Part shown: positions 1 to 48,594 of the stretch, in pieces
Numbering within the stretch: the first letter of the stretch is position 1
Layout of the letters: each line of letters begins with the position of its first letter
NCBI GenBank assembly: GCA_947396885.1
Contig: OX377205.1
Coordinates: forward strand, 98,934,428-98,998,427
DNA length: 64,000 nucleotides
Source: Heligmosomoides polygyrus polygyrus
Taxonomy: Eukaryota > Nematoda > Chromadorea > Rhabditida > Heligmosomidae
Reading direction: 5' to 3'
Notes under the pieces: model-generated
Told to the model about the DNA's origin: nothing
What the model saw: only the letters and a program-made list of their open reading frames with translations
Database searches by the model: none
Program-made: the position numbers and the translations under genes

Positions 1-640
1 TCAGAGCATCCAGTTTCGGAAGGTCATAACTCGCTCAGGAGTTTCAATTTGCAATTTCGACACCCATATTCGTAATCAGCATTCCGAGCTCTTTCTAATA
101 ATTCTGGTCTCAACTTGAAGATCCATGGGAGGTCGAAACCCTTCCCTAGTGAGAAGGGAACGGTGCCATTTCATTTACTTTTGGGGTAGGAGGCCGCCAA
201 GCGTTTTTTCGTCTCCTTGACGATTGTACGATGTCTGTCATGAGTTTTCGGAGAACGTACCTGATCCTAGTATAGAAGTTGAATCAGGGGAATGACTACC
301 GTGTTTCCCTGAAGGGGGAGTCTAACGCAGTGTCGCCACAGATGTCTGTTTGAGATCTACCTCATACACTTCGAATGTACGTACTGGAGTCGACTGTCTC
401 GAAGAACGTGTCTTCTGCGATATGTTGATGACTACTTGATATGCTCGTCTTCGAGGGAGGAACTTCTGCAAGTGAGTTGTTTTCATGGGCCTAATTCTGA
501 AACCTTAAAGCGTGACGAAATGCGAAGCTGTCGCAGATGCTGACTACCCTTCGAACGCCGAACGAGTTCGGGATATCAGCTAGGCTCGTCAAGTGTGAGG
601 TGGAAAATGCTTTTCACTCAAATTTTAATATTCGTATATA
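1..640. other. no gene recognised
   Basis: I see no convincing ORF, splice-bounded exon or known repeat here. The right edge abuts the 3' end of a minus-strand LINE. Confidence 0.4.
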
Positions 641-4879: not shown

Positions 4880-5836
4880 TTATCGTGAAGTAAACATGCC
4901 TAACGTTTTTCACATCAAACTGAACGTCTTCCAAATGAAAATGAGCACCTTCTTTACCAAACTAGAGACTCAGGGACGGTTAGATTAATTTTTTGTTCAA
5001 GAAAAACTTTAGTATAACTTTCTGTGAAGTTTTAATTTACCTGCTCAATAAGGCATACTTCATACTTCGGCGACCCGTCGCCGACACCAGGATTCGAGTC
5101 TTGCCTGGTGTAGAACTTATGATTGCAACTGGGCATCCTTCTAACAACTTCTATCTCCTACGTCACACAGTGATCACCCGAAATGGCTTCGACTGCCCTT
5201 GCAAACATTGTAGAGCTCAGAGATTGCTCGAAAAATGAAGAAAAGCAGATATATACACAAGCGACATGTGTGGATTTCTTAAACAAACCCAGGACGTGCC
5301 GCATCTCGATGTCCGATTCAAAAATTTTGCGCAGGCCGCCCTTTTCAGATGCGGCCCGACGGCCAGAGACAACCTTTCGCTATGCTGCGCACAGCGGCAA
5401 GTTGTCGCCGACAGCGTCGACGACAGTATCGGCGACGGGAGTATAACAGTCCTGCGACGCTGTCCGCGACGCATCGCCGAGGTATAACATATGCCTAAGT
5501 CCACTCATTGTTGAAATTTTTATTTTAGAGAAAAAATATTGGTTTAATGTTTGTTTTAAAGAGCAGGAAGGCGATCATTTCTCACTGCCAAAATAGGAGA
5601 TTGGGCCGTGCCCGTTCAAGACGTCGCGACTATTATTTGATTGTTAGTAAAATTTTTGATAGCATTGGGTTTTGCGCCTGTTAACAATACAACAAAAAAC
5701 AATCATAAAGAACACATATTTAGATGTTTCATATAATTTGAGCAGCGTCTACACTGTTAATCGAACAAAAATCGTGGCGAGCTAGATGCGATTTATTTTT
5801 TTCGAAGCATTGAATGATTATTTTTTAAAAATGATG
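4880..5836. repeat. family J repeat arm, split by a MITE
   Basis: Shares the family J series of phrases (CAAACTGAACGTCTTCC, TTTTTGTTCAAGAAAAA, GAAGTTTTAATT) with copies at 14.7, 51.5, 55.6 and 63.1 kb. It is interrupted at a TAA site by the palindrome 5052-5495 and resumes after it. Confidence 0.7.
5052..5495. mobile_element. MITE family F-like composite palindrome
   Basis: Left end GGCATACTTCATACTTCGGC, right end GCCGAGGTATAACATATGCC, flanked by TAA at 5049-5051 and 5496-5498. A second inner CTTCGGCGAC/GTCGCCGA motif pair suggests nested or duplicated copies. Interrupts family J. Confidence 0.75.
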
Positions 5837-18523: not shown

Positions 18524-21500
18524 GTACGTTCTTCAAGCTTGTGAGTGCTAAGCTCAAAGCTTTCCAATTTTGTGTAAATACCACGACGGCAGCGTTTACA
18601 GTACGCCGTGCAGTTCTCACAGTTCCTTCACATGGTGAACTGCATCAAGCTACGATCAAGTATCCTGAGGGCTTGTTCATACTTCGCGACAAGAGCGACT
18701 CGTCGCCCGTGCAAAACATGCGTATCGATTAAAACCGAGCGCGCGCCCCCGAAAAGTGTTCGTACTCGAGCGCCGGCGCTATGGGATCGTTTAGTGTGCA
18801 TGCGATACGCGACGCGATGTTACAATAGGCTCCCATATTGATCGCGCGACGCGATGGATCGATATGGTAGCTTGTCATCACATCGGGTCGCGCGTCGCGT
18901 GCACACTAAACGTTCCCTATCGCTCCAGTCGCTCTTGTAACTCTAGTCGCTCTTGTCTCTGCTGTCACGAAGTATGAACAGGTCCTAAGATGAGAGGACA
19001 AATCCTCTGAGAACAGAACTTCGTCTGGCATCTATCTATCTGGCACTGCATAAATAAGTTTGTCCGCAGTTAACGATTATATATAGTTTCGGAGCTACGA
19101 CGGACCCTTTATACTTCCGACGTCGAGCGACGCGATGATATGTGTAGCGGCCAAATCGATCGATTTTCGCCACTATAAATGGCGTTGCGTCGCTCATCGT
19201 CGGAGTATAAACGAGGCCATGACAGCGATTGCAGGCTCGACGTGAAGCGTTTATAATGGGAGCACTCTAACTGTTAGCCGTTACAAGGATACAAGCATAA
19301 AGGATAAAGGACGGCGTTATTCAATCCCCTTTGGGATGCGCCACGCATTCTACTTCTACGGGATGTCGTGGAGGCGACATGAATGCGTGTTTCGCCATAC
19401 AATGACTTGCGGTGGCCAGCAGATGAACAAACCAGCGCTTTATCCTTCCCAGACACGTCTGGTACCAATTCACCGACCCCGGAGGGATGGAAGGCTTGGT
19501 TGGCCTGGGCGGGAAATCCGAACCACGCACCTGGTATCGGGTGCAGGCGACAGCCGGCGCCTCCTCCGACTGCGCTCCACGCGCCCGCCGTTACAAGAAT
19601 TTTGATAAACTCTGTTATTCTTGGAGGATGTCGAAGAAAGTTTTATGCCAAAATGCGTGAAAGGAATTGAACAATAATTTTTCAGGTGTCATTCTTCTTA
19701 CCGGACAACGAGAGCATTGAATCAAGCTCGACACGACACATATTGCCATTGAAAAGGTTGGGTGTCGCTTCTAATTTTTGCTATACTCGTGTATCGATAG
19801 GTGTTTAACTGACACGGCAATTTAGGTGTATTTTTAGAAATTCAATTCTGAATCTTTTCTTGGGTTTCACCTTAGTGGTGACCAAACGTGAATCCACTCA
19901 TATAACACTTCTGGGGCCAGATTCGTCAACGACTTACATAACTTTAGCTGAGAATTCATAGCGGAAAAGTCAGATAACGCGGCTTATCGCTCACCATGTC
20001 GCTTAATAAGCCGCGTTATCTGAGTTTTCCGCTGCGAATTCTCTGTTAAAGTTATGTAAGTCGTTGATGAATCCGACCCCTGATATAATGTGAAATAAGC
20101 GTCCTGTTGTTCTCTTGACATCCCGCGGAATCCAGTCGTTGACGACCCTCGTCAAGCGAATGTCTGCGAAGCGCATTACGTGGCCGGCCCATCTAATTTT
20201 CGACGAGTTGGCCCATGTGACAGCGTCTCTGATCTTTAAACGCTGACGAAGCTCGGTTTCAGCGTAGCCAAGATTGACACAAGTTTTTGTTGCGGCTTAA
20301 ACTCTGGCGTTGTCGCCTACTTCAGAGCCTGGGAAAGTCGAAGTCATTTGAGGAGTCATTTACCCCTCCTAAATGTCATTTCTTTCTGCAGGAACCCATC
20401 CAAAAGGCTAAGAGACCACGAAAAAGACGCCGTAAGAAGTTGAAAAACAAGGCTAACCTTAGATATGGACAACGTCAGTCACCCTTCAACATCACCCTAG
20501 CTGGCTGGTTAGGTCGCTAGAGCGGATGGTTCCAAGGACTCGAAGTCTTACCTTTCATTCAGCTAGGGTGAGCATCCTTAGTTGAGAGAGATTTATCTCG
20601 GCAGATTTCAGCCAACGGAGTCGTGGATCAATATTCGATTCGACCGTCAACCTCAAGAAGCGAGCATCACATATAATCCTCGAGGTGCCTGCGGCTCAGC
20701 TACGAAGAATAAATGAGACGGAAGGAGTCGGTTCCATAAAGCGTGAATCGAAACACTTCTCCGGTGCGTTAAAATTTTAATTGATGTCTGGTTCCATAAC
20801 TGCCAGGCGTGGTTGGAATCTGATGACACGGGCCAATAGCTGCTAGATGGGATGGCTAGGGGAACACGGTCCACCTTCTAGAGCTTCACTGAAGAGTCAC
20901 CAGTAGCAGTCAGATTACGAGCACGAGACATGTGGCTAATGATTTCCCAGAAGTTCTGTTATAAGTTTTTTTTACGAATTCTTCAAAAAGACTCCTTATT
21001 TCTGCATTCTTTAAAAATGCATTTCTCTCTTTGTTGACTTAGGCCAGCTCTTATCAAACCCGCGCCATCCACTAACAAGGGAACTGTCTGAAATGTACAC
21101 CGGAGCGGCAAGAACGAGTACTATAGGGAGAATCTCGAATCCTTCAGGCAAACGAGTAGGATGGCGTAATGGTTAAGTGTCCGCAGAGTGAGCTTACCAC
21201 GGCAGCGCAAGATGCCGGTGCCGTAGACTGGGTGGCGCAGTGGTAGAGGGGCTGCTTCATATTCGTGAGGTGGAGGGTTCGGTTCCCATGCTAAGGCACA
21301 TTTTTACCATAGTATCGGGTTTCCGTAGAGATTTCCATATCTGAACTTGTTTTTGAAGTTTGCTACGGTAAGATGTTTTTACTTCTTATTATTTGTTAAC
21401 ATCTCGTAATTCACCAGCAATGCACGAAACATGCCAAATGCGATTTTGTATGAAACTTTTACTCCAGTAAATTGTTCTCACTGCCAATGTAAGAAATTTT

Positions 21501-24500
21501 GACAAAGAACAACATGAAACAGCGGCAGAATGCCAGAAAAATGCTTCAAATGCAATTTATTAGTGTCGGTGGGTGAGTGCCACCAGTGTACTCACAGTGT
21601 AGGAGGGGACCACATGATCTTCAACTTGACCTACCACCTCGATCAATATTGTCGCCTCTGTTGTACTTACAAAGTCACGCGGTCATAGCAGGCTGCTACC
21701 GCCAACACTGACTCTACAATGTCTGCTTACCCTCGAGTGGTCATTCACCTACTGACACTGAAGTGCAGATCTCCACTGGATGCTGTCCCTTCGAGAGACG
21801 AGATCAAGCTGACGGAAAGGATAGTGGGTATCCTACGGGATTGATTCGAAATTGCGACAGCTGGAAATCGACGAATTGGAGATGTTGGAGGTAGTGGAAG
21901 AAGGGGACCAAGAGTTTCAATCAGAAGAGAATTGTGCCGGAGTCACGACACCACTAACCAGTAAAGGCACTACCACGTTTTCGGGAGGACAGATCGTTTC
22001 GGAGGAAAAGGTTTGGCTATACTAGAATTGTTATACTATACAAGTTTGAGAACTGGGGAAAGTGGTCTGTATCGCGATTCCAGGCTTCGGCTGCAGCAGA
22101 GTACCACTGGGCAGGAACTGTGAAGCCAAACACAATTCAGATATGGAAATCTCAATGGAAATCCGATACTATGGTAAAAGTGCAAAAACGCGGCGTACCA
22201 TGGGAACCGAACCCTAGACCTCACGAACATGAGGCAGCTCCTCTACCACTGCGCCACGTAGTCCACGGCAACAGCATCTTGTACTCTCTTGGTTAACTCG
22301 CTCTGCGAACCCTTAACCATTACACCCTCTAACTCGTTTGCCTCAAGGATTCGGCAAAAACAAAGCATGTTCTGCTACTATTTGGAGGAGGAGATTCTCC
22401 CTATGGTTCTCGTTTTTGCCGTTCCGGCGCACCGTTCAGGCAGTTCCGTTGTAGGGAGATTGAGAGAAGCATCCAAGCAGGAGGAGAAGTCTACTTTAGA
22501 TACCGACTGTTCTTTCGTTCTAAGACTGTCGCAGCTGTCAGCTGATAAAGAAACTCGTTAGCTCTTGCGTGCTCCCTACAGTTCTATACGATCAATACGC
22601 TTCCTCTATCATGTTTCCGAATCTGCCAAATAATTTCAGACAACACAACTATGCATGGTCCAAAGCGGATATACTACGGGAAGAAGTGGTCGTTTTTCTT
22701 CTGGATACTGATGGTCATCTTCTCAGTGGCGCTGCTGATTAAGCAAGTCGCCACTCTCATATCCATGTACTTAAGCCATCCTACTATATCCGACGTGAGT
22801 CTCTTGCGAACACGTGTTTGCTTCATTTCGTGTCTTGGCAGTGGAAGAGCAAAATATCGCAGAAGGGTGCAGCTAGAGGAGAAATGCTGAAAGGAGGCGC
22901 CAGCGATGGAATAAGTCTAAGTTGGTAACTATTCGTTGCAGGTAACGTTTTCAATCAAGCAGGATGGTCTGGATTTTCCGGTGATTACATTCTGCAACTT
23001 TAATCCTGTAAGGAAATCATATATTCACCGTGAGTGCGACATTTTGTTCTCCAACCTCATCAGCGTAAGCCATTTCTTTGGCCCGAAAAAGCCTAAGCGT
23101 TCTCCTAAACTGTCTTTTGAAAATGGAATAAATTCTGGTGACCACTGCGTGTTTCTAACGGGCTGTTATTTGTTCAATCAGATTCCTGGCTATAAAAAAT
23201 ACTAAATGCTCAGCTCAAAATTTCTTTTTTAACAAAAGCTGGCTTTGATGTCCGTCTTCTCAGAAACCTATTTGTAATTTAGCTGTGAACACAACGGTTT
23301 TTCCTCTTCTTCACACAGCCAATTTCAACGTGCTTTTCAGAAATCAATCAGACGGGTGATTTCTCGGACGATCTCCTCGACTACATGATGAAATTTTTGA
23401 CGGATCCCTACACATTGTACGGCGCCGCTGATCGAGCAAACTTACATGTAGGTAGGGCATTGCCTAATGGATCTGTTATTTAGAAAGTATTCGATTAAGG
23501 AGAAACATTTGTATTTGTTATCTAGTATGGTCACCTGACAAAGAATGACAAAGAAGGTGTTTTTATAGTCCTGCCATGGCGCGATCATAAGCAGAACGGA
23601 TCACCACGCCCCAACCGCTTCACTGCCACCCCTTCCTGGCAACCGTATATACTCCGACGCGCACAAGCGTACACGCACACACGCACGCCTGACCACGCAG
23701 AAACGCACGCGACCACGCGAGGGTTCACGCGCACGCACACACGATCGCGCACGCAACGCACACGTCCACACGAGGGTGTACGCACACGCACGCTTACGAA
23801 CGCCGACGCACGCGCTCGGTGATCTGCAGAAAGCGGGTTAGCCTACACACAACGGGGCGTATGCTCAGCTCCCCCTCCTGGAGAATACACTGCCTAACAA
23901 GTGGCAGGAATCCTCGTGTGAAACGACCTAAAGGCGGACAGTTAGAGCTTCGCTTCAGCCCCCAAATGAATTCTCTTTGGTATGCATTGATACCTCGGCA
24001 GTTAAGCCTTTATTCAGACGGTGGTCTGACCGCTCAGCACCGCGCACACAGCTCAAGAATGCCACGTGCTCCGGGCGCTCGCCTTTTATGCCGTCGGCGG
24101 GGAGAAACCACGCCTCTCTGCGGCCGGCCGGCGGGCTCGGCCGCGGAGCATCGAAGACGCGACCAGACACACACACAAAATAGTCAATACAGCACGTTTC
24201 CTACGAGAACTGCTGTCTGGAACAATTTAAACTCAAAACACATACTAAATACAACAATTAAACATTGTAACACAGCAGTAAGGTAGAAATACAAACAAAA
24301 CACATCAATTCCTACTTAACACAAGAACTTTTCCAACGGCGGCTTGGGCCTTTCACCACTTCCTTTTACGATTGCCTGAAAGTATTCCGAAAAGGAAATA
24401 TGAAATGGTCCTGACCCTGACCGGTGCTGGTATCCTTTCACAACACTGCATTACGTGTTCTTCTTTTGTACTCTATCTCAAGTCACTTATTTGTTTTGGT

Positions 24501-26062
24501 TATTGCTAGCTTTGCTGTTCTCCACGTAGGCTTTGTCTACGTCAATAAATACAATACAATAGATGGCCCAAATTATCTTTATCATAGGACATAACCACAT
24601 CAACGAAGCATTGTGCGCCCGATGGCATTGTCAGTAAGTGGCTCGGTCGCTATGGAGAGCGTCGAAAGTGGCGCAACCATAAGGCCTGTGCTATAGTGCC
24701 ATCTGTCGCTGAGGCTGACATCGTTCACGCAGTTCTGCAGACGAATACTTTTGTAGAATTTACTGCAACTCAGCTTGTTCATTGAATTTTCCTCGTTTTA
24801 GGGGGGGGGGGGGAGTCCATTCATGTGCTCACTCCGGCATTTCTTTCGATTCCTATTTTGCTCTTGGACGCTTCGGCATCATTACTGCAATGGTAAAAGC
24901 TTCGTCCTGTTTCTTTGTTGCTGCGTAGCCAGAGTTTTCGTCGCGAAGGGAACGTATCAGGGAAACGTAAATGGCAAATATGCCAGTATGAAATGCCAGA
25001 ATGAACGAAGGTAGAATTTCGCTAGAAAAACATAACTTGATCAAAAACAAACAACAAACGTAAACATCACAACATCAGGAAAACGTCAACCAAACGAATG
25101 TTGAAATCAGCATAGAACTGCCAGGAACGAAAAAAGTGTTGGAATCAGTCGGAACAAGTGCAAAAATGGTGCACGACGAGCGCTTGCCCCTCAGCTACCG
25201 TCTCTCGTCGATGTGCACTGCATGGTGGTAGTAGAGGTGGTGGTCTGTTGGTCCTCCTCAATATGTGAACACGCATTGTTGTGAAGGAAGGAGATAGATG
25301 TGATACACTACCGCGGTGGCATAAGTGCAAAATTCTGAAGGTTTCCTTACAGTTAGTCATACATCCGGATTTTGTCACGCGCAAAAGTGGCATCAAGGTT
25401 ACACAACATATAATCAACATCATACTCCTAGAACCTATGTAATCAAGCTAAATTTTAGGACAAAAAGCACTGGAGCTCTACACACAGACCAATCCAAATT
25501 TTACGGCGAGGGGGTTTTTCATGGACGCTGGGTAGGTTATTATTGTTGTTATTCGCTTACTTTGCATCATTATATGGTCACACTATGCGTGGTGACAGTG
25601 TTGCGCGGGTAGCTACAGACTGCCTACCATATCTATGTACTATACTAAAGGCATAAGACTATTACCTCACATGGGATTGTATTTGCTGACCAAATTTCAC
25701 AGCACTGGTAGGGTCATGCAAAGTTCACCAACTGCGTTGAGTTAAAGAATCGTTTCCATTGTTTCTTTAATGTTTTAGGTGATTGTATCGATCACAACCC
25801 GAAGCTTTCTCTATTTTCGAAAAGAAAACATCAAAATTAGTCTTTAATCAAGCAGTAACATCTCCAACAACAATCTGTTTGGTAACTTATCCTTAAAGAT
25901 TTGTATTAAGCTTCGCATGTGAGGAAGAAATGGTGCTGTGTTCGGTCGCAGGTCGGCAGTTCAACTGCTGTCAGTACGTGTTACCTATTTTGACCAACTT
26001 GGGAAAGTGCTACAGGTACAGAACACAATTTTGTCTAAAGACTATAATATTAGAACGGCTCT

Positions 26063-26114
<52 letters not shown>

Positions 26115-29100: not shown

Positions 29101-32100
29101 TTACTTCGTACTTCAGTTTAAAATAATAATAATTAGTCTACGTTACAGTATACGCTACTCCCATCTGAACGGTATGGTAACTGCACTTCCGAATGGCCGC
29201 CTGGCTTCAGCAGTGGTGCATTACCATACTCGGCGGTGAATTGTGATTCGGTCTGCAAGGCCGACTACTTCAATGCGAAATGTGGATGCAGCCCGTTTGC
29301 TTACAACATTGGACAAGGTAGTTATTACTACTATTATCACTGTTATTATTACAATCATTATTATTATTATTTATTACACGAGCATGCTCATGTGGGTTAC
29401 AACCACTAAGTGAGACAAAACATTCACAAAGTTGAACGATAATATACCTCGACAAAGTCTTACAGAAAGCCAACTAAGTACTGCTCAGTTAACTCGAGAG
29501 ATCGACTGCAAAAACTGACCGTAAGTGAATTCACAAATCTATATGGTTGAGGACACCAATAGCTTAGTAGTCGGTATTTTAGGTTGTGCCTAACTGTATT
29601 TGAAGACTGGGGTTTACATAGGGCAGTGACTGCTCTCACGCTGCTCCAGATCAGACCGCGGTACAGACATAGGTCAGCCCACAGAGACCCAAAAACGAGG
29701 AAATTTCGCCGGGATCGCGAGACGTTCCTCTTTCCGGTTAACATTTTGGGTTCTTAGAGTGAATCCAAAAGGCTTCCGGTGTTTTTCGCGCAGCAGTGGC
29801 GAATTTTAGGCCCAGGCTTCTGACCGCAATCCCAAAGTCTTGCCTTTCGAGCCGAATGGTGCCCAGTGGAGTGAAGAGCCGCTATTTTGGATTTGCCCTA
29901 ACTAAAATGTAGAGAGGCCGCGCCGTCTCTTCGATGTATTCATCGCCACAGACGCAGCAAGAGATTAAATAGATGGTGTCACTCTTGCTGCAGTCACCCG
30001 GCTTCCTCAATGGCAAATTACGCAATTAGGGATCAGACGCTGATGGTCGTATATGCGGTTGCCTCCTTGTTTACTGTCTTATACAGGAAATCCTTCTCTA
30101 CAAGCGTAGAAAAAATAGAGCTTAATATATTGTTTTAACGAATGAGGAATAGAAGTCCATAAGAGGAGCTACGACTGCGACTGCGGCTTGCAAAGCTGCC
30201 AAAGAATTGAGCAGGCACAGAATTTGGTAAATTCAGCAGGTTGCATTATGCAGTCGCGCATTCAAGAAGCAGCTGGATAACTATCTGAAAGATAAAATAA
30301 CAAATAATTGATGTCAGGTCCAATTTTACGGCCATTTCTTTTTTGTTTTAATTTTCGATTTTAGTATTACTTCGAGCACTTTTAGAGTTGATGTGTTTTG
30401 TTATGTTTTCGATACTCAGACATTTTTTCTACATGGTCACCCATGTAATAAACATACATACATACATACATACATACATACATACATACATACATACATA
30501 CATACATACATACATACATACGTACATACATACATACGTACATACATACATACATACATACATGTATACATACATACATGCTCTGTCAAAAGGCTTTCGT
30601 CACGCCACGAATAGATATTTATGAATAAACCCTAGTTTATACTTGTGCCGCCACGTGGCGCGGCGTCATGATTGCCATAGATATCGATTTATCGCGCCGC
30701 GTGGTCGATATCTATCCCGAGCATGATGCCGCGCCGCGCAGCGACGCAAGTATAAACTAGGGCTCATACTGATCCACCGTAATCTGAAAAGTATGTGGAA
30801 ATAAAGGATAAAGGATAAAGGACGGCGTTATTCAATCCCTTTTGGGATGCGCCACGCATTCTACTTCTACGGGATATCGTGGAGGCGATTTGAATGCGTA
30901 TTTGGCCAAACAATGACTTGCGGTGGCCAGCCGATGAACAAGTCAGCGCTCTATCCTTCCCAGACAAGTCTGGTACCAATTCACCGACCCCGGAGGGATG
31001 GAAGGCTTGGTTGGCCTGGGCGGGAAATCCGAACCAGGAACCTGGTATCGGGTGCAAGCGACAGCCGGCGCCTCCTCCGACTGCGCTGCACGCGCCCATA
31101 TGTGGAAATAGCATTTCAAATAGTATAAAATTGGGTCTATTGCTATCGTTTTTATAGAACTGAGTTTTTCCCACATTATTTTGTGGGTCACCCTATATTT
31201 TGGCAGTGTAAAAATATCGATTTCACTCTCTATACTGGAGCCAACCCTCGCCGTGACGCAAGTAGAAACCACGCCTAAAACTGACCCCTTACCCAGATGT
31301 TTTGGAGCTCTATTACAAATTGCTGGCTGTATCTTTTTGCAAGGATATTATAAAATATTATTAAATTTTAGTGTATGCAATGTGCACTCCGTTTCAAACT
31401 GTGCGATGTATTGACGACCACATAAGGAAGACCGTAGACGGTAGGTCCTTTTCTACCATGTATCATTGTCGTAATGCTGATTCTACGAGGTATTAGGGTG
31501 TCGGAAGGTTTTGGAAATTGAATTTTTAGTCAGTTTTTTCAAGACACAATAACTTCAAACAAAACGAAAGATCAGTGACAGGACGAAAGATTGACGTCTC
31601 TCTATCAATTGGGCAAAACAGCTACATCATCCTTTAAGAAAAGACGAAATGAAATTCATTCGTCAGACGCAGTTTTGACCTGGCGGTTGTGGAATTTCTT
31701 CCCCTCGCGTAGACCACAAGCCTTCTAGGGTCGGATTCATCATTCACTTACATAACTTTAACAGAGAATTCACTCGGAAAACTCAGATAACACTGCTTAT
31801 CAAGCGATATGGTGAGCGCGCGTTATCTGAGTTTTCTGCTGTGAATTCTCTGTTCTCCAGTTGCTCTCATTCTTTGCCTGGTGCGGAAGGCGTTGTCCAT
31901 GACGATTAGGAACTTGCCCGCGTTAAGGATCGTACTGTGTACGCGACACGCGACGCGATGTTCTGGTAAGCTCCCATATCGATTGCGCGACGCGATGAAT
32001 CGATATGGGGGCTTATCATGACAAGACACTCGTCGATCCGCATTCGGCGATCCTTTTCGGTGAGGCACCGCGGAATAACTTCATAGCGTGCTGCGCGGAA

Positions 32101-35100: not shown

Positions 35101-38100
35101 TTAAGGCGCCTTTTATACTCCCGCCGCGGCGCGGCGCGTTAATTTGGGGAGCGGCGCGTCCAGTCGCGCCGCGCCCCGAATTTGATGCGCCGTTGCGCGA
35201 TTGCAGTTAGAAAGGGGTGCGTCAGCGACGCGCGACCTCGAGCTTCTGCGCACTACGGCCCGTGCTCCGGAAACGGTCCATGAGTCATTGAGGGAGCAAA
35301 ACAGAAAGGATTCGTCTGGCTGATCAGCGCAATGCATCTTATCAATGTTTGTCGTGGGATTCCTATGGGGAGCGACGAATCCTCTCTTAAGCCTGGAGTC
35401 GAAGTCGTTCGCTCAACCTACGGTTGAAACTGGTGAGTCTGGTATTGAGTCGAATCCCCTGCAATGCAAACGGCTTTAAACCACTCTTTATTTCGTGATA
35501 TGTGCGGGTCCAAAAGTAAAACTACTGGAAGGTACTCATCGTCGAGAATCACTCAAAATTCTTTCTCATATGGCCATTCTGGGGTCAATGTGCACTAAGC
35601 ATATCTTTGGCGTGGTATATGAAGCTTCCTGAATGTCTACAGATCTCCGTTCTCTTCCTAGGTTAAAGAAGGTACGGGCTAAGGTCATGGTCACCAATTT
35701 CGCCCGAACTCCCTAATCATGCAAACCTAGTAATCGTCTGTAACTTCAAAAAACGATGTCAGACTCGTGATCAGCACCCTAAATACCCCCTTCTCCTTCC
35801 CAATAGGAGAAGTTTGGTCGAAACGGTGAAATCCCCCACACTACACCGAGTCTGCCGCGGCTGATCGCGCCGCGCCGCGCCCTTCCCCTCAGCGGCGCGA
35901 TTCGCCGAATACCGTAACCCAAAATTCCGTCAAGTGTGGTGTTTTGCGGCGGCGGAGTATAAAAGCGATGCGGCGCCGCCTCGCGGCGCGAAAAATCGAT
36001 AGCCATGCCGACCATCACGCCGCGCCGCGGGGCGGCGCAAGTATAAAAGGCGCCTAAGCCGCCGGGGTGAGCGTGATGCTCACTAGATCCCGCGGCCCTC
36101 TCCTGGCGCTCCCGTCCGTAGTGTCAGCACTGAATCTTGCAGGGACGAGCCCCGCGGTAGCCATCAGGAATAAAGGGAGCAGAGCGAAAGGTCGCAGACC
36201 TCGTCGCGGGAGCGTGGGACGTTGACTGCGGCCACGCTCCTGTCGAGAGGAGGCGGCGCGCGCCGATCGATGGTGCAAGCTACCGTGAGAAACGGCGCGC
36301 CCGGGCTGGCCGCGGACCGAGGAGCGATCGCGCTCGCGACATGTGCTTTCGTATGAGTTCTTAACTTCTTCAGTACCTTTACTGGCAACAAGGTCTTTCA
36401 AACAGTGGATACATTTTTTGAGACAGCTGTATATCAACATATCTCCTTCGTGAATTAGATTTTCAAAAACTTCACATCAATGCGGTCTGCATGTCACTGA
36501 CCCTGTAACTATTGAATGAATCGTAAGTAAGGACAAGGTAAAAGCTTTGGAATTTGTTGACATATATCCGGCACGGGCGCGTGTAGCGCAGTCGGAGGAG
36601 GCGCGACTGTCGCGTGCACCCGATACCAGGTTCCTGGTTCGGATTTCCCGCCCAGGCCAACCAAGCCTTCCATCCCTCCGGGGTCGGTGAATTGGTACCA
36701 GACTTGTCTGGGAAGGATAAAGCGCTGACTTGTTCATCGGCTGGCCACCTCAAGTCATTGTATGGCCAAATACGCATTCATGTCGCCTCCACGACATCGC
36801 GTAGAAGTAGAATGCGCTGGCGCATCCCAAAAAGGGATTGAGTAACGCCGTCCTTTATCCTTTTTTTTATATCCGGCACGAAGGTGGACTTTCAGAGCAA
36901 ATTTCGTCACGATCAACGTCTTCTATCGTGACATGTCCTTCATGCAGTACTCTCAGACCGAGAAGACGTCACTAACCGAAACCCTCAGTAAGTCCTAGAC
37001 GCTCCTAACAACGTTATGACTTTGCATCAATGCGTTTTTCGCCTAATCGATGCGTTGTGTTTTTTCAACAGCAATAAAGAATAAATATTCTTCTCTTAAT
37101 ATTATGTACTGGTTTTTCTGTTCGGTCCTAAGTGCAACTGCATGGTGTACTTCAGGTGACATCGGTGGAAACATGGGCATGTTCCTGGGAATGAGCCTGA
37201 TTACTGTCATTGAAATACTGATGTATCTGTCCAAAGTCGGCTGGATTACACTGTCAAAGAAGCGACGTTATTACATGTACAAAAAGAAGGAGAAGGAGAT
37301 GGTTCGTTGTGATTTGTTTACGTCAGTTTTATTGTCTTAAATATTGTAAAATAACGAGGTTGCCCAGAGGTTTCTGCACGGAACAAGCAAACTCCAGGGG
37401 ACAGCGACCGCTTACCGCCCGCTAACGCTGAAAATACCCGCGAAACCTCCTGGTATGACATTCATCAGCATCGGGCTTGGCGGTATTTTCACCGTTAGAG
37501 GGCGGTAAGCGGTTGATGAATGAAGCTTGCTATAGCTCGTTAGAGCCAATCAGTCGACCTCGCTCATCACCTTGCAGTTCGAGTCTTCGAGAAGATAACA
37601 GCAGTTCAATGAAGCAGTAGATTTTTAAGAATGTAGTTCTCAATCATGATTGTTAACTACAGTGGGCGTTTTTCTAACCACCATAATATTTCTCAGATAG
37701 TAGGCGGGTTCATTGTCTTATGGATGGTGTATATATATGTATGTACAGGGTGCGCCATAAATATGGTCACTTTTTCGCGCGTCATTTTTTGTATTTGTTT
37801 GTGAACGTTTTTATATTTTCATTGTTTCATCGGATTCTACGTGTCATCTCAACCGTATATAGTGTTTTTTGCATCTCCACACTGCTTCTATCAGAAAAGG
37901 TGAAATCTTGTTGTCAAAGAGGCGCAATCTTGGATCCGAGAAGAGCAGGACCATCTGTTCCCAACATCTCGTCTGCTGAAGCTGCACAAGATGACAGTCT
38001 ATCGCTGTGTGGAACGTAATTCTCTCGTTGATCGTTCCCAACCTGGCTGCTCGGTATCCGTAGCTACGAGCAGTCTTTGAAAAATCGTGAAAGAACAATT

Positions 38101-41100
38101 CAAGTGGGATCCAGGCCGCAGCATGAGAAAGATGGCATCCGAGCTCAATGTATCGGCTACGACAATGAAGCGAGTTGCTAAGAATGAACTTGGACTATAC
38201 CCCTACAAGTTCCGTCAACTGCACGGACAAACGCCTGTACAGATGGAAGGAAGAAGAAAAAATGTCCAAAACTCCTCGAGCGGCACGACCACTGCACGAC
38301 GCTCTTCACCGATGAGAAACTTTTCTCAATTGAGCGGTCTTTTGACCGCCAAAACTCGCGGTTATTGGCTGACAGTGGTGAGGATGCAGACATCGTTAAC
38401 AGAAACTCTCTTGCAGCTTCTCTGTTGGTTTGGGCCGGAGTTTGCGCCACAAGACGGACACGATCGGTTTTCGTTGGAAAAGGAGCCAAGGCCAAAGGTC
38501 GTCTGCTGGCTGTTATTCGTGTAGCAGGGATCATATTGAATGATATTTATTTTGCGTGTTAACTAGGTTGTTACTAAATTGTTGAGGAAGTCTCGCTGTT
38601 CCCTGATAAATGCCGCGTGAGTAATTAATTCTCTTTTTATTGAGTGACCATATTTATGGCGCACCTTGTAAAAGGAGGGTCAGCGAGAGTAGTCACTGAT
38701 TGCAGTTAATATTGTTGTACATTTTTTCGCTTTTGTTCAAATTTAATGATTCTCATTCTCCGTATCGACGTCTTTCGTTCGTGCGTTTAAATGTGCGCAA
38801 CTCCCTTCTATGCCATCGCCTGAGGTACGTACCAGTTCAAAGAGGCCTTTGAGATATGGGACCCGTCTTGGGGTCGTGTGCTTACCAGGAGACAACATCA
38901 ACGATAGGTCGGAACGACCCAAGTGTTGTATAAGGGCAGAATCGCCTCTCTCTGGGAAACAACAAAATGCGCATATCTCTACCCCAATACAACTCTGCGC
39001 AGAGTTAAGGACGACGGAAGATGGGCCGTTGGCGGCGTTAACCCTCTCCATGCACGCGGAGGGCGGGCTCAAGTTGACTGGAAACAGCGATGACGAGCGA
39101 GAGATGGTGGTGCAGTGAGTAGAGGGGAGGCGTAATCCTCATAGCCGCTGTTTCCAGCCAACTTGAGCCGGCCATCAGCCTGCAGGCACAGGGTTAATGC
39201 CACCAACAGTCCAACTTCCGTCGTCCCTAACTCTGCGAAGAGTTGTATTGAGGTCGAGATATTTGCATTTTGTTGTTTCCCAGGGAGAGGCCATTCTGCC
39301 CATATACAACACATTGGCCGATCCGACCTACCATTGAGATAGTTTCTGTTTAGAAGGTCATAGGCTTGGCGCATATTACAATTCGCATGCAAGACATCCT
39401 CGCAGAAAGGATTTCATATGCGCTTTATGTTCTTTTTGCGATTTTAACAGCCTTTGCAAATTATTTTTTCTCCCACTATATGAAAAAATATGGGCTACTC
39501 TTCGACGAAACTATTTTTCCATTCAAGTGAACCAGGCAATGAACTTACAACGATCTCAGTTTATCTAATTCCAAACTGGAGTTTCTACATTACTCACAAA
39601 TGGATTGAAAAACGCTCAAACCGAACATATGCCATGTAATCTGGCTTAATCTACAGTATTCGTTTTGTTTATTATTTATGGCGCACAGTTTGTGTAATAA
39701 ATAAATAAATAAATCTGGTCCCGGGAAACAAGCGGATACATATTGAAGAAGCTTTGATCGTTTCGGAACAAAGCTTTTGTGGGGTCTGTGTCGTTCTACC
39801 TTATGCCTTTAGCGGCTCTCTGAAATGATGAGCGCAATCATATATTCTGATTGTCATCTCTCTTATTATGCAACTTCATAGCCATACAAATATTATGACT
39901 AAGTTTTTCTACGAAGCACAGAACTGCTATTTTCGGATAGCTGACTTGTTGTCACTTTTAGGACCTGCTTTTTAGGTGTAGAATTCACATTTATTCTAGC
40001 TTCAATGCTCGCTCCAAAAACTCAAAAAATGAGATGAATCCCCTAATCATATTGAAGATGCCATTTCTCTGATTCTGCAGACGATTGGTCGTCTGAGTGG
40101 TGTTGTCACTTCTTCCAGCTGCAAGTGCTTATTCCAGGAACACGCCAAACAATTAGAGGAGACAGTGAGCAGCTTCAAGATGTTCCGAAGTCGCAAAGTA
40201 GGCGGCACCGAGGGCAGCAGCGCCCTCGGCAGACTCCGAGCGATGACCGGAGGGCGGAAAGTAGCTCGAGTCGAGGATCCGTCAGTAGTTTCTGCAGTAA
40301 GTAGTTGTTCATATGGAATTCTATAGAAAGTATTCATATAATATTTGACACTCGTGTTTATTTCATTCTCACATATGCCCTAGAAAATTATCCTGCCCTG
40401 CGTCCGAGTGAGCAGTACCCTGGTTTGTGACAAGGCTGAGGGCTCTTACTATTAGGTCATTATGAATGAAATGGCCGATTTTGAGCCAGAACTTTGGTTT
40501 ATTATTTCTCAACCAACAGACAATGTAATCATGCAGAATATGCGCCTTAACCATCTACATATCTCTGCCATCTTCACGCTAATTTGCCCATTCCGGAAGC
40601 TTAGAGCCCGGAGGGCGAGAAGCGATGAAATCTGAAGCATTTTCCACATTCACTTGAGAATTGAATTTTTTATCCTGTAAGAAGTGGACCAATGCTTGGG
40701 GGATGTGGTAGTCAGTTGGTGCGAGATGCGAGTCGCTGCGAGGGTGAATACGGCGGGTGAATGAGTTGTTCCGCATCCAGCTCCTGCAGTTTCATCAACG
40801 TTGTCTGTGTGACGTGTGGTCGTGCGTTGTCTTGCATAAGTATTAGGCTGTCGCCGTCAACCAATCTTGGGTGCTTAATTGCAAGCTTCCTCATCGTATC
40901 GTCCAACTGGTTACAGTAGACGTCCGCAGTTACCAATTCACCAGGTCTCATGAATTTGTAGTGGATGATTCCATAGGTATACCATCTAACAGACGCCATC
41001 AACTCTTTTGGTGGATGTTGGGCTTCGGACTGCGCTTCGGACTTCATCTTTATCCATCGTGCCTAACTCTTAGGCCCCGTTTATACTTCCAATGCCGAGC

Positions 41101-42264: not shown

Positions 42265-42439
42265 ATACCTTCTGATAACGATTTATTTAATGATGGCGTT
42301 TCAACTGAATCCTCGCTGTAGGATGGTCAAATGTAATGCAAACCTTCTCGATAACTTGGTGACGAAATCAAGGAGAAATGACACGCTCCATTAGTTTTAA
42401 TCCACCTCAAACCGTGGTTAATCGAGTCTGCCAGACTAC

Positions 42440-42572
42440 GGCCCGTTTATACTTCCGACGCCGAGCGGCGCGATGGCATGTATAGCCGCTAAATTGAGCA
42501 ATCGCGTCGCTCGATCAATATGGCTACCATACGTGGCGTCACGTCGCTCGGCGTCGAAGTATAAACGGGCCC
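42440..42572. mobile_element. MITE family A palindrome
   Basis: Ends GGCCCGTTTATACTTCCGAC and GTCGAAGTATAAACGGGCC; TAA follows. Confidence 0.85.
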
Positions 42573-43488
42573 TAACATGTTAAGCCAGTTTTCGGCGGTT
42601 CAGTTTTCGATGCGTGTCCTTGATACACACACGCAAGATGTCGTTCGACGATTTCTTCTCAAACTTGGGTAATTAAACCGCTGTAACCATAAATACATAA
42701 AAATAAATCATATGAGAGCACAACGCATGAGAAAGTTAATGAACGGGGGCAATGGGATGAACACAGTATGCTTTTCCCTGGTGACCTTTTATAATGATTT
42801 TTGTTTCCCAAGCGCAAAAATTCTTATACCGATCTACTCCTTTCTAAAATCCCACGGATAGTTTCTATGATTGCGAGAAAGTCGAGACACGTATAATTTT
42901 GCAATACCAAATGTAAAATCGAGGCAATCTTCCATAAAATCTCCAGGTAATTTAGATTTTCACCACCAACTAAGCAAACACCACGAAATATGCACTGTTG
43001 AAGTGCATTCCGCCATCTCCCCACGAAATGGTCTCAGGCATATGTCTAAACGACGAAAATGAATGCCACTGCGAGAATCTTAACCCTTCAGGTGGTAGAA
43101 AGTGTGTTCAATTTTCGCAGAGTCCTTGAACCTACTGAATTACGGGTGGGGAAGCTGAAAGTTTGCTATGGAATCGAGCAGTCGCGCAATGCAATGTCTT
43201 CCAAAGGTCAAATATGTAGAAAAATGCAAAAATACTGCCCTGTCAAGGAGTCAAACATCTGACCCCGCGACTATGGAGCAGTATCTTTGCGTTTTTTCCA
43301 TATTCGAGGTTTGGAAGCCATTGTGTTGTGCGACAGTGCGACTCCATAGCGAACTTTCAGCCTCCTCACCCCGAACTCGGTAGGTTCAAGGGCTTTGCAA
43401 AAAATGGAACGTATTCTTCTACTATTTGAAGAGTGGAGATTCTCGCAGTGGCATTCATCTTCTCCGTTGCAGACGTGTGCCTGACCTG
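42573..43488. other. no gene recognised
   Basis: Short ORFs without motifs. Confidence 0.4.
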
Positions 43489-45108
43489 GATACTATCTCA
43501 ACGGTAGGTCGGAACGGCGCAAGTGCTGTATATGGGCAGAACCGCCTCTTCCTGGGAAGTAACAAACTGCAGGTATCTCAACCCCAGTACAATTCTGCGC
43601 AGAGTTAGGGGCGACGGAAGCCGCATGTTGATTCACGTGCTCCCCAGCTGACGGGCGCATGGGATGAGGGCTCGCGGATCAGCGCAGTGCACAAGTGGCG
43701 TAGTAGGGAAGCGCTCGGGATCGAGAGCGAGGGGTCGAGGGTTTGGATCCCGCAGACTGCGTTTGTTTTGCACTTTTGCAAAATCCATGTCTGTCATATA
43801 GAATCCACCTAGGGGTGTATAGGGTGTTATAGAGCATGTTTACATAGAACGTATGGTTCAAACTACAGATCAGCTAAAATGTTAACTTCTATGTGTCACT
43901 TGTTTGAAGCCTATTTTGTGTGATCGTAGTTATGTAACGATAGATATTTTGTGGCACTAGTTGAAAGTTCTGACTCCATCGACAAGACTTCGGTCAAGAA
44001 AAATCCCTCTGAAGCTTTGTCTAGATAGTTGTGGTGCTGATCACGAATCTGACATCCGTTTTTCACGATTCGGTCGGAGACCACCCATACCGTTAACAAA
44101 CGTGGTCCACTCATGGTCACCGATTTCGCTGAAACTTCGTCTAGGGGGGTTATTTGGGGTGCTGATCACGAATCGGACATCCGTTTTTCACGATTCTGTC
44201 TCTACCTGCCGTCACCGGCAGAAACATTAAGAATGTAATCCTGTGCCTTCCTGTATCTATATTATCCAGCCGAATCGTGAAGAACGGATATCAGATTCGT
44301 GATCGGCACCTCAAATTACCCCTAGACAAAGTTTCAGTGAAATCGGTGACCCTACCTGGACCATTCTTTTTAACGGTATCGGAGATATGTTGTATTAAAC
44401 ATGCTCTATAACACCCTGTAGTACCCCTAGGTGGATTACCTATATGATAAACATGTATTTTGCTAAAGTGCAAAACAAACGCAGTCTGCGGGATCCAAAC
44501 CCTCGACCTCTCGCTCGCGATCCCGAGCGCTTCTCTACCACGCCACCTGTGCACTCCACCCATCCTCGATACCAGCCCTCATCCCGCGCGCGCCCGCCAG
44601 CTGTGGAGCACGTGAATCAGCAGGGCGCCAACACGCGGCTTCCGTCGCCCCTAAGGCCTCGTGCATACTTCCCGTCGCCGCGATGGGATCGCAGCGATGA
44701 GTTTTGCAGAGCGACGCGAAAGAATTTGAATTTCTCTGTGCTGGTCGCATCGCCCATCGCTTTGCAAGGGAGCGCGACGGCGATCGTCCAGGAACAACGC
44801 TAAACACCGCGCGCGGCGCGAAAAAGTATGCCAGGCCCGCGATGGGCGCGGGAAGCCATCGCGCATGCCGACCGTCACTGTTGCGGCGGCCGCGGCGAAG
44901 TTTCCATTGACTATTCGACCGCGTGCGGCGGAATGGCCATGAACTGAGCGCCGCGATGGCATCGCAGCGATGGAAGTATGCCCCCGGCCTAACTCTGCGC
45001 AGAGCTGCATTGGGGTCAAGATACCTGCAGTTTGTTACTTCCCAGGAAGAGGCCGTTCTGCCCATATACAGCACTTGTGCCGTTCCGACCTACCGTTGAG
45101 ATAGTATC
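43489..45108. mobile_element. FB3: large foldback with tRNA-like arms
   Basis: Ends GATACTATCTCAACGGTAGG and CCTACCGTTGAGATAGTATC, exact inverses. Arms extend at least 350 bp each with further inverted homology up to a loop near 44200-44270. Each arm has a tRNA-like pair: TGGCGTAGTAGGGAAG plus GGGTTTGGATCCC on the left (43696, 43738), complements at about 44530 and 44489. A tandem duplication lies inside the left arm. The right arm carries a nested MITE. No ORF with a motif. Confidence 0.88.
44655..44989. mobile_element. MITE family G, nested in FB3
   Basis: Ends GGCCTCGTGCATACTTCCCG and GATGGAAGTATGCCCCCGGC (then C), TAA at 44652-44654 and 44990-44992. Inner GATGG(G/C)ATCGCAGCGATG repeats. 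Confidence 0.88.
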
Positions 45109-45317
45109 GTGGTGAGACCCTATTCTCGACAGCATCCAACGGAAATGTTCATTATGGCTCTTTCTTGTTAAGGTACGAACTTTACATCAGCTGAAAACTT
45201 CTACGGTCATTCGAGCAATATACGCAACCTTTGAGAACATTGTAAAGTGACACTGAGACTGAGATTCCTTCCACCAACATTTTTTGGAAAAGATTTTTTG
45301 AAAATGGCGGCAGTCTA

Positions 45318-45575
45318 AAATAAAATGTAAAGCACGGCGTTAATCAAACCGTTTCGGGATGCGCCACACACTCTACTTCTACGTGATGTCGTGGAGGTTA
45401 TTTGCATGAGTATTTAGCCCAATGGCTTGCGGTGGCCAACCGACGACGAACCAGTGTTTCGTCCTTCCCAAACGAGTTTAACACCAAATCGCCGACCCAG
45501 AAGGATGGATGGCTTGGTTGCCCTGGGCGGGAACCAGAAACCAGGAAACAGGAGTCGGACGCACGTTCCAGTTCG
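45318..45575 (-). mobile_element. diverged SINE, copy 6
   Basis: Recognisable GATGCGCCACACACTCTACT, GGTGGCCAACCGACGA and TGGTTGCCCTGGGCGGGAA blocks of the SINE, with many changes; the A-box end is lost. Confidence 0.75.
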
Positions 45576-46608
45576 CAGTGCCAGGCGCTGATGTAACCAC
45601 TTCAGTGAATAAAACGGCATTTATTAGTCAGTAGCGGGCACAACTGTGTTCATTAACAACATAACGAAGAGTTTTACACTAAACGAAAGGTCTTTACGTA
45701 TATTATTGCGGTAAAATTGATTAATACCGGCGTGTCTGTCATGTGTGTTACAATGGATTTTGTATTTCTTATAACTAGTGCCTTCTCATTGTCTTATTTG
45801 AAAGAATCGTTTTGGGGTGTAGTTCACACTTTCATCGCCGCGCGGCGCCCTTACTCGGAATCGATATCGATTTTCGTCGCATGCGTCTCATTGCAGTTTA
45901 TTGTTCGCCGTCACAATGCACATTATTTGACGGCATTTTAGGTACTGTTGTCAGCGGCTCGCGTCTCAAAAAGAATTGGAGGCGTATAGAAGCCTCATTA
46001 GACCCTTGAAAAGATTTGAAGCAGCAATATAAGACGAAGTGTGTCAAAAACAAGAGCTTGCGGTCGAACGTAATTTACCCAACGAGAACGTTGGTAGACC
46101 TACGATCGAATTTGAAAGTGCATCACATGGGAATTTCGAGCTTATTATAGAACTCTAATATTATATAATGACGGAAATAGTGAGCTGTGATGATCGAGAA
46201 AGGTGAAAAATCGGTGTTGTAAATGAAGATTACTTTAGTCGCCTTACTACAGCGACGATCCGGTTCCTCGACCGGGCAGCGTTGTGAGTTTGCTTTCGTT
46301 CTCTGTGCCGAACGAAATCACTCAGGCATCAACCGGCTCATTCTCGTTGAAGGTTGAGCTGAAGATCGACCTGAACGGACTCGACACGCCGAGCGGTGTT
46401 TGTTGGATGACGGCGGACTATCGCTCGAGGCCACGGTCGAGCACAGCACCACCTCCTCCGACTAGACTCTGGAACGACTGCTGAATTGGCATGACCTCCC
46501 TTCTTCATCTGATTCTCACCTATGCAATTTCGAATGATGCTCAGTATTGCGATAAAGAACATGACAATTGTTCAACGTCGACTTATGGCGTCAGAAGCTG
46601 AAGCATTA
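45576..46608. other. no gene recognised
   Basis: No exon or repeat confirmed. Small ORFs only. Confidence 0.4.
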
Positions 46609-46741
46609 GCCCTGGTTTGTAATTGCGACGCTGCGCGGCGCGGCACCATGGTCGGAATAGATATCGATCGGGCGCCGCGAAAAATCGATATCTATGGCAA
46701 TCGTGGTGCCGCGCTTTGGCGGCATAAGTATAAACTAGGGC
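46609..46741. mobile_element. MITE family B palindrome
   Basis: Ends GCCCTGGTTTGTAATTGCGA and CATAAGTATAAACTAGGGC, TTA at 46606-46608 and 46742-46744. Confidence 0.88.
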
Positions 46742-47144
46742 TTACGCTGTTCAAGGTGTGATGGACTATTTGTACAAGAGGTTGTCTTTTTTGAACACTT
46801 AAGAGGTTATTACGTCGTCGTTATTCTAACATCAGCTTCCCAAAAATGATACTTGAACAATGTCTACAATCTTGTTAGCGATATATACCATTTTCTCGTC
46901 GAATTGGACACTTTTCAATCAAATTAGACACTTTGGCGATCATGGTGCCGCGCCGCGTAAGTATAAACTAAGACTAAAACTTTTGAAGTCAAAGTTCTAC
47001 AAGAACTGTTCCACATTGAAATGAGATTTTTCTACATCAAATTAGAGACTCTTCAAAAAGGTGGGAATAATTTTTTGTTCAAGGAAAAATTTAATATGAT
47101 TTTCTCTGAAGTTGTAATTCATCCACCCTTTAATTCATCTAACA

Positions 47145-48594
47145 AGGGAAGGGTCTGAAGCGTAAGTCTGAACGGGGGGAGCGAATCATATAAGGAGCCT
47201 CACCCCTCATTTAGTATAGAAATGAGTTTATTTTTTGCCAAGTCGCTGAACCCAAGGAGTAGGGGTCACAATGGGATACGGTGCAGCACGCGTTTGGGGG
47301 TCTTGTACGCCCGCAATGCCTCATCAGCCAGTGGCTCGGAGTGCGGGTGGGTAGAAGGTTGACTCACGTAAAAGAGGTCGGGGGTTTGGTTCCTCTGCGC
47401 TGCTGCATTTTTGCATTTCAACTGATTGGTTGAGATTTGGGGGATTCTGACGTCTATACCATTTTCAAACGTTTTCTGCGCATTTTCCAGCTGTACGTTG
47501 TGGTATTCAACATGATGAGTATAAATGTTCAACACCAGTGATAAATAGATACAAAGTGCATGAAGCACCACTGGGCACTTTACGGGTAGCGTATAAAGGC
47601 TACAGGCTCCTCATAGTCCGATTCCATACATGGACCAAAGGCCTCGGGAAAAACCATCCCGCTCGGATTTTCAAAGGAGACCAGGATGTGACGTCGGAGG
47701 TGGTTCAAATGAGAAACGAGGTGTGCGGATTAAGCTAAACGGCATCGATACACTCTTTCCCTTATGTCTGTCTGTCACCTGTAAATCAGAGGTCTGCTGA
47801 AGGTTTTCTAGAACCTAACACCAACAATGTCCACCGATGCTGGAGTGGTGATCCACCTGCTCACGCTGAAGTGTGGCCCACCTTTAGACAAGGAACCTTC
47901 GAGGGAAGAAATCAAGCCGGCCGAACGGATGACCAGCATACTCAAGGACTTCGAAGCACGTCAAGTTGAAGTTGACGAAGACGAACAGCTGGAAGTGATG
48001 GAAGAAGAAGAGGAAGATTGGGATCCGCAAGATGAACTGAAGGACGTGGAGAGGCAAGCAAGCAGTGGGCATATGACAACGTTTTCGGGTTGAACTCTTG
48101 TTTCGGAGGAAAGGGTACGTCTTCAATTGGATTCCGGTTGCGTGCTCATAACCATGGAGAAAGACACTGCGATTCACTACAGAGGCACTTTGTACCTGTG
48201 TATCACTGGTGCTGAACATTTATCACAATGTTGAATACCACAGCGTACAGTGGAAAACGTCTGAAAATGGTATAGACATCAGAATCCCTAAATCTCAACC
48301 AATCATTTGAAATGCAAAAATGCAGCAACGCAGTGGAGCCAAACCCCTGACCTCTCTCGCACGAGTTAACCATCTATCCACCTGCGCTCCGTGTCACTGG
48401 CTGCAAATGCATCGCGGGAGTACAAGACCCCCAAACGTGTGCTCCGCCATAGCCCATTGTGACACCCTACTCCTTGGGTTTAACGACTTGACAAAAAATA
48501 AACACATTTTCAAACCAATTGAGGGGTGAGGATTCTCCCTAAATTACTCGCTCCCCCCGTTCAGACATACGCTTCAGACCCTTCCCTTGTAAGT
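47145..48594. mobile_element. FB2: large foldback with tRNA-like arms and an ORF
   Basis: Ends ACAAGGGAAGGGTCTGAAGC (left) and its complement near 48575-48592; arms of about 400 bp. The terminal CTAACAAGGGAA is shared with FB1, so they are one superfamily. B-box-like GGGTTTGGTTCC (47382-47393) with complement near 48336. Encodes the acidic ORF 47827-48093. Inserted in family J. Confidence 0.88.
47827..48093 (+). CDS. foldback-encoded acidic protein, unknown function
   Basis: 88 codons. N-terminal half VVIHLLTLKCGPPLDKEPSR and EIKPAERMTSILKDFEARQV looks structured. The C-terminal half is highly acidic (DEDEQLEVMEEEEEDWDP) with no membrane segment or signal peptide. A related but interrupted copy sits at the same place in FB1, so the ORF belongs to the element family, not the host. 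It could be the N-terminal piece of a transposase whose remainder is deleted, or a separate accessory protein; I see no catalytic motif. ATG chosen because homology with FB1 begins there. Confidence 0.6.
   Translation: MSTDAGVVIHLLTLKCGPPLDKEPSREEIKPAERMTSILKDFEARQVEVDEDEQLEVMEEEEEDWDPQDELKDVERQASSGHMTTFSG

Follow-up and report, generated by a model that had tools for sequence, protein, structure and literature searches.

Tc4/Tc5-type foldback transposons of Heligmosomoides polygyrus carry a putative RNA polymerase III transcription unit in each inverted arm

The window analyzed here is a stretch of 64,000 nucleotides of the nematode Heligmosomoides polygyrus polygyrus (contig OX377205.1 of assembly GCA_947396885.1, positions 98,934,428 to 98,998,427, forward strand), and it contains three near-palindromic foldback elements, FB1, FB2 and FB3, as a preliminary description had reported. 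These elements are Tc4/Tc5-type transposons, probably non-autonomous, and each of their long inverted arms probably contains a short RNA polymerase III (Pol III) transcription unit, made up of an A box, a B box usually about 44 nt further on and a T-run. Furthermore, the pattern of mutation among copies suggests that these units were really transcribed. If the units are also a working part of the transposon, this would be a first case of cut-and-paste transposons using Pol III, which is usually tied to short interspersed elements (SINEs) rather than to cut-and-paste DNA transposons.

Results

The foldback elements belong to the Tc4/Tc5 group

Refined from their target site duplications, the ends of the three elements moved by a few bases relative to the preliminary description. 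FB1 lies at 21076..22451, between TAA (21073-21075) and TAG (22452-22454), with the terminal inverted repeat (TIR) CAAGGGAACTG; FB2 lies at 47143..48589, with the TIR CAAGGGAAGGG and TAA on both sides; and FB3 lies at 43485..45112, with the family TIR CCAGGATACTATC and TGA on both sides, none of the three being assigned a strand. FB3 is interrupted in its right arm by a GC-rich insertion of 338 bp (44650..44987, likewise unstranded) without counterpart in the FB3 consensus, whose length is 1320 bp.

The genome searched comprises 656,174,362 bases in 1130 contigs. From a loose first look of 1613 (FB1), 5427 (FB2) and 5765 (FB3) candidates, 40 were scored per search, and we read 31 FB1, 30 FB2 and 20 FB3 copies plus 20 arms of a fourth family; the copies belong to the top 40 matches of each search, the best matches to the elements of the window, and are not a random sample. 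All three families are multicopy and inserted in C|TNA|G with TNA duplications, and their copies end in the TIR sequences given above. Two copies of each family miss an end and were left out of the target-site counts; among the two-ended copies, the C|TNA|G frame is intact in 14/19 (FB1), 12/19 (FB2) and 16/18 (FB3), and the TNA triplets flanking the element agree in 15/19, 13/19 and 17/18, respectively. The inverted arms of the consensus sequences measure 328 bp at 99.7% identity in FB1, 426 bp at 96.7% in FB2 and 390 bp at 99.7% in FB3. Galileo/P-like and Mutator-like foldbacks have 8-9 bp duplications, unlike the 3-bp TNA duplications found here.

The Tc4 target is likewise given as C|TNA|G with TNA duplication (PMC11071193). 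The preliminary description had regarded inverted-repeat elements with internal tRNA-like promoters as a class not known; tRNA-like promoter boxes in both inverted arms are supported here, but the class is not entirely new, since the carriers are of the Tc4/Tc5 type and Tc4 was called a fold-back element as early as 1991 (title cited in PMC11071193).

An open reading frame (ORF) is common to the FB1 and FB2 consensus sequences. Over 99 codons its nonsynonymous divergence (dN) is 0.28 and its synonymous divergence (dS) 2.0, and differences at the three codon positions number 24, 19 and 57; by these measures, the shared ORF evolved under constraint. In the window, the interior ORF of FB2 (47827..48093, + strand, 88 codons + stop) is related to the ORF of the FB1 consensus, which itself matches L113, a locus with a Tc5 transposase C-terminal domain (Tc5_C), upstream of that domain (E 1.8e-4). 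Pfam detected no transposase domain and nothing above the cut-off in the FB1 and FB2 consensus ORFs, and a PDB search with the Tc5 fragment returned no match. Elements with similar ends contain the Tc5_C domain.

Both arms contain a module with the layout of a type 2 Pol III gene

Four pairs of an A-box-like sequence and a strict B box at tRNA spacing occur in the window, and they are those of both arms of FB1 and FB3, in agreement with the preliminary description. In 30 first-order Markov shuffles of the window, the same criteria gave a mean of 0.07 pairs and a maximum of 1, which rules out chance boxes, with the caveat that the two arms of one element are not independent. When two mismatches are allowed in the B box, there are 5 pairs against 0.53 (maximum 2) in shuffles, the fifth being at 37576, outside the elements. 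The A boxes of FB3 are 3-4 positions off the search strings, and FB2, earlier described as having clear B boxes and weaker A boxes, indeed has B boxes and no A box that passes the window box scan.

We refer to the unit in each arm as the module. In FB1, the left-arm unit spans 21214..21307 on the + strand (A box 21233-21248, B box 21276-21286, T-run 21301-21305) and the right-arm unit 22174..22274 on the - strand (A box 22241-22256, B box 22203-22213, T-run 22184-22188). The FB2 units span 47325..47421 on the + strand (B box 47383-47393, T-run 47408-47412) and 48308..48406 on the - strand (B box 48335-48345), with a weak A box in each; those of FB3 span 43679..43778 on the + strand (A box 43696-43711, B box 43740-43750, T-run 43766-43769) and 44463..44559 on the - strand (B box 44491-44501). 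The distance from A box to B box is usually about 44 nt (about 52 in locus L052), and a T-run (TTTT, or TTTCT in two) begins 20-26 nt past the start of the B box in 10/11 modules, the chance of a T-run within such an interval being 0.087; the run is interrupted in the modules of loci L108 and L110. A box, B box, spacing and T-run together make up the layout of a type 2 Pol III gene, with the A box weak in FB2. ARAGORN found zero tRNAs in the window, and the tRNA covariance model of Rfam (RF00005) had no match in the window (E up to 5) and none in the 7 Tc5_C loci described below.

Alignment of at least 75 of the 94 module positions at no less than 70% was taken as good coverage, which was reached in 62/62 FB1, 59/60 FB2 and 40/40 FB3 arms (161/162); the remaining FB2 arm, in locus L059, aligns over 72/94 positions with 93% identity. 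The module came with each family and is a fixed part of it rather than a later SINE. The separate, later SINE insertion that the preliminary description had named as its refuting case is not seen, and insertion of a SINE into single copies is ruled out because every FB1-FB3 copy read, among these best matches to the window's elements, has the module in its two arms; no genome-wide search for module-free sites was made. The module may descend from an ancient SINE or tRNA. The FB1 and FB2 consensus sequences are collinear, with 73% identity in the outer 100 bp, 73% over 45 nt of the module and an alignable ORF; in 30-nt windows the module reaches 60-67%, and the arm between drops to 40-47%. Four FB1 copies (L018, L022, L024 and L025) have common flanks on both sides, which suggests later duplication of a single FB1 insertion together with a host repeat.

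Loci with a Tc5 transposase domain carry the same module

A model of the module was built from 24 arms, the better match of the two arms in each of 8 copies per family, and run on unseen loci. For the Tc5 transposase C-terminal domain, 150 places were listed (from 4146 first-look candidates), and 7 were read, selected by score or for having long open frames. In every one of the 7, inverted arms next to the domain hold the module, both arms in 5 loci and one arm in 2 (L109, L112), with E values of 6.6e-4 to 2.5e-10. The right-arm match of L108 spans the B-box half only. Read by eye, the C|TNA|G ends are CGAGGAAGG in L107 and L108, CAAGGGAAGG in L110, L111 and L113, and CTAGGGAAGGG in L109, and the outer ends of L112 were not found; from these end types, about three families are represented. 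Pogo-like DDE_1 elements are ruled out as partner, since the same model found the module in 0/8 such loci, each covering only about 1.5 kb either side of the match, and their inverted repeats are short or absent (21-29 bp in some, 70 bp in L097, none in others).

Among the listed Tc5_C domains, two inverted pairs stand about 880 bp apart (G000 C39:41241128/41242012 and C1:44735882/44736765), and three tandem domains stand 380 bp apart (G000 C52:42463761-42464712). The paired domains may be foldbacks with transposase-coding arms.

Copies bear a mutation footprint over the module

Divergence from the consensus was counted per position, and stretches aligned below 65% were left out. The module diverges 1.7 to 2.3 times as much as the rest, over a zone that opens ~64 nt ahead of the B box and closes at the T-run that follows, and it is the hotter part in 31/31 FB1, 30/30 FB2 and 20/20 FB3 copies and in 17/20 arms of the fourth family (L113 type, arms only). 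Among the copies read first, 21 of FB1 and 21 of FB2, the hottest 100-nt windows fall at the two modules (0.088 in FB1 and 0.086 in FB2, against 0.047 and 0.056 for the best module-free windows), and the module compares with the rest as 0.086 to 0.037 in FB1 and 0.083 to 0.042 in FB2. Hold-out copies, tested with the limits of the hot segment fixed beforehand, gave 0.098 versus 0.043 for FB1 (10/10 copies) and 0.084 versus 0.048 for FB2 (9/9 copies). FB3, with its limits fixed at -64..+30 of the B box, gave 0.084 versus 0.0425 (20/20 copies, p 1.9e-6). The fourth family gave 0.098 versus 0.059 (17/20 arms, p 2.6e-4).

A change-point analysis placed the hot segment, relative to the B box, at -63..+34 in FB1 and -64..+26 in FB2, with log-likelihood ratios (LLR) of 86.3 and 44.8 against maxima of 25.3 and 21.8 in 12 column permutations; taken by single arm, the segments are -63..+26 and -81..+34 in FB1 and -64..+19 and -64..+29 in FB2. 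From the bin with the T-run to the next, the rate drops from 0.098 to 0.025 in FB3 and from 0.189 to 0.045 in the fourth family. At its other end, the footprint starts ~20 nt ahead of the A box, as would be expected for the start of a type 2 Pol III unit. GC content as the cause of the hot segment is ruled out by GC-rich stretches elsewhere that are at baseline, and CpG is ruled out by the excess at non-CpG positions (0.081 vs 0.038 and 0.082 vs 0.043).

Taken together, FB1-FB3 have a strand-asymmetric footprint. In module orientation, C>T is in excess over G>A with an odds ratio of 1.47 (p 5.7e-5), as is A>G over T>C with an odds ratio of 1.72 (p 5.4e-7); in the arms outside the modules, the C>T and A>G asymmetries are 1.18 (p 0.06) and 0.91 (p 0.35). 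The strength of the bias varies between families: taken separately, the C>T and A>G asymmetries have p values of 2.8e-4 and 0.085 in the first set of FB1, 0.066 and 0.025 in the first set of FB2, and 0.26 and 0.0076 in the pooled hold-outs, and the A>G asymmetry of FB3 is 2.14 (p 9e-4). Damage to the exposed non-template strand is named as a usual cause of such a bias in a yeast review, which refers in that place to Pol II (PMC12139591).

Within the unit, the A box and the B box diverge less than the linkers in FB1 (0.064 and 0.057 vs 0.104; 0/93 circular shifts give as large a difference) and in FB3 (0.030 and 0.041 vs 0.104; 1/93 circular shifts), which may reflect protection by bound TFIIIC or selection. 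A first within-family test had given 0.07 for the FB1 boxes against 0.098 for the rest of the arms, and 0.074-0.081 against 0.057 for FB2; the value for the rest of the FB1 arms was apparently inflated by poorly aligned left ends, and the test was redone by position. The preliminary description had asked for boxes conserved above background, and the answer is divided: among copies, the boxes of FB1 and FB2 are more diverged than the rest and those of FB3 are about equal to it, whereas within the unit the FB1 and FB3 boxes diverge less than the linkers, and a comparison of the FB1 and FB2 consensus sequences shows stronger conservation in the module than in its flanks.

Other palindromes and features near the elements

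Outside FB1-FB3 and the FB2 copies, the module model has three matches in the window plus 20 kb, at 43220-43280 of the window and at 1731-1806 and 5726-5820 of locus L052. The first is a half module (B-box end + T-run, 23.1 bits) in a small palindrome, 43049-43468, which adjoins FB3; the second is a different tRNA-like repeat; and the third lies within another palindrome, one with CTAA|CAAGGAAAGG at its right end. L052 also begins with a palindrome at 1-660 (from G000:C27:4500210 on), which has in its arms outward-facing tRNA-like sequences, at 234-308 (minus) and 521-595 (plus), that score 29.8 and 30.3 bits, above the Rfam gathering score; relatives below that score occur at L052 1734-1808, L052 7119-7193 and L051 3914-3987.

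The window also holds FB4, a short FB3 relative of 465 bp (38885..39349, unstranded) with a TTA duplication and C|TTA|G ends. A 451-codon open frame at 918-2273 on the - strand resembles a non-LTR reverse transcriptase, judged by eye, and an ACAT tetranucleotide array at 30420-30603 apparently causes mir-297 Rfam matches below the gathering score.

Discussion

A model for transcription of the arms

We propose that each ~90-nt Pol III unit faces inward and would stop at its T-run, and that Pol III would have transcribed the units in the germline, giving rise to transcription-associated mutations. This would account for both the footprint and its asymmetry, because such marks would be expected where Pol III transcribes a unit of ~90 nt. 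Both arms would yield one and the same ~90-nt RNA and not a hairpin RNA, which would require read-through. The likeliest use of the unit, and the most speculative step of the model, would be to keep the transposon ends in open, non-silent chromatin. It is possible, if somewhat doubtful, that one Pol III unit per terminal repeat is a working part of the Tc4/Tc5 lineage, kept across families for a benefit such as open chromatin, escape from silencing or the ~90-nt RNA itself.

Several observations weigh against this model. The B-box motif is intact only in 40/62 FB1, 38/60 FB2 and 32/40 FB3 arms, the T-run of the L107 module is not in place, and the module model, run on FB4, has no match there. 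RF00005 has no match in the modules of 10 FB1 and 10 FB2 loci (E up to 10), and the consensus fold of the module is a 3-bp stem only, short of a cloverleaf; since the cloverleaf is not retained in the RNA, the promoter, and not a tRNA product, seems to be the part that is kept. The FB2 boxes are not clearly cooler than the linkers (0.070 and 0.075 vs 0.092; 11/93 shifts), nor is the B-box bin of the fourth family cool (0.09). The left arm of FB2 alone gives a weak segment (0.084 vs 0.054), whose LLR of 13.3 is below the 21.8 of the both-arm permutations. Some 10-nt bins outside the unit are equally hot, at -240, -210 and -140 (0.087-0.093) and -70 (0.145) in FB3, and at -260, -200 and +80 to +99 (0.10-0.16) in the fourth family. 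Strand asymmetry is absent in the fourth family (0.80 and 0.76, not significant), and the C>T asymmetry of FB3 alone is not significant (1.16, p 0.47).

Alternative explanations

The module could be a decayed tRNA or SINE piece that an ancestral Tc4/Tc5-type element captured once and that is now inert, the hot segment having some other cause. The absence of a cloverleaf would fit such decay, as would boxes whose conservation among copies does not exceed that of the remaining element; however, box spacing and T-run position are retained across families that otherwise hardly align, and the limits of the hot segment are those of a Pol III unit in four families, and we consider this capture unlikely. 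There is a rather small chance that the units bind TFIIIC without being transcribed and that occupancy or replication-fork pausing raises the mutation rate. The B-box columns are indeed among the best-kept columns of the module alignment and the A boxes of FB2 are weak, as binding alone would allow, but the footprint reaches past the B box and ends at the T-run, and FB1-FB3 have an asymmetry of the non-template-strand type. Stutzman et al. (2020) reportedly found extra TFIIIC sites in C. elegans repeats, with TFIIIC bound to repeats that bear B boxes.

Excess divergence might also arise from a mixture of subfamilies, or from conversion between modules of different families, and not from mutation. 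Variants common to at least 4 FB1 or at least 6 FB2 copies are in excess of a star phylogeny, a further point against our model, and pairs of the same variant in the two arms of one copy number 25 and 28 against 12.8 and 12.4 in permutations, so that some subfamily structure or arm-to-arm conversion is present. Conversion or mixture would make per-arm counts overdispersed, though, and these are 0.90 and 1.12 times binomial; the left-arm variants of FB1 show no lean to FB2 bases, which rules out conversion with FB2; and in the four copies of one FB1 insertion the module still diverges more than the rest (0.0205, 15/732 cells, vs 0.011, 50/4536; p 0.045). As the source of the footprint as a whole, this explanation is improbable. 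Least of all do we expect inward transcription to cross the element and give self-complementary RNA that feeds small-RNA pathways, as the preliminary description had supposed. Both units of FB1, FB2 and FB3 do point inward, yet a T-run stands behind 10 of 11 modules and the footprint ends there, which argues against such RNA, and the repeat strand encoded is the same for both units, so that the inverted copies would give identical RNA.

Implications and comparison with known systems

Loose first-look counts suggest thousands of such places, which, in a model parasite, would matter for how tRNAs are annotated, for chromatin and for the sources of small RNA. According to one published table, with columns assigned from their totals, tRNA-annotated DNA amounts to 675,650 bp in the sister species H. 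bakeri and 62,284 bp in C. elegans, a difference of about ten times (PMC6468290). In the open literature, judged from titles and abstract starts and with few subscription papers included, no paper describing Pol III units in Tc4/Tc5 arms was found. The method is general, in that divergence among transposon copies can reveal a germline-transcribed stretch.

Tc4 of Caenorhabditis elegans has the same foldback form and C|TNA|G target, a likeness by description, and the word tRNA occurs 0 times in the paper that describes this target (PMC11071193). In Tc5 elements, recognized by the Pfam domain Transp_Tc5_C, the domain adjoins module-bearing inverted arms in 7/7 loci, with C|TNA|G ends read in 6/7. 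Transcription-associated mutation of tRNA genes likewise raises mutation at Pol III units, and tRNA genes are described as having raised mutation in their flanks (PMC8113476, citing Thornlow et al. 2018); here, by comparison, the effect is seen across copies of transposon-borne units. Finally, tRNA-derived SINEs likewise have A and B boxes at tRNA spacing, whereas the unit described here lies within the arms of DNA transposons with TIRs and TNA duplications.

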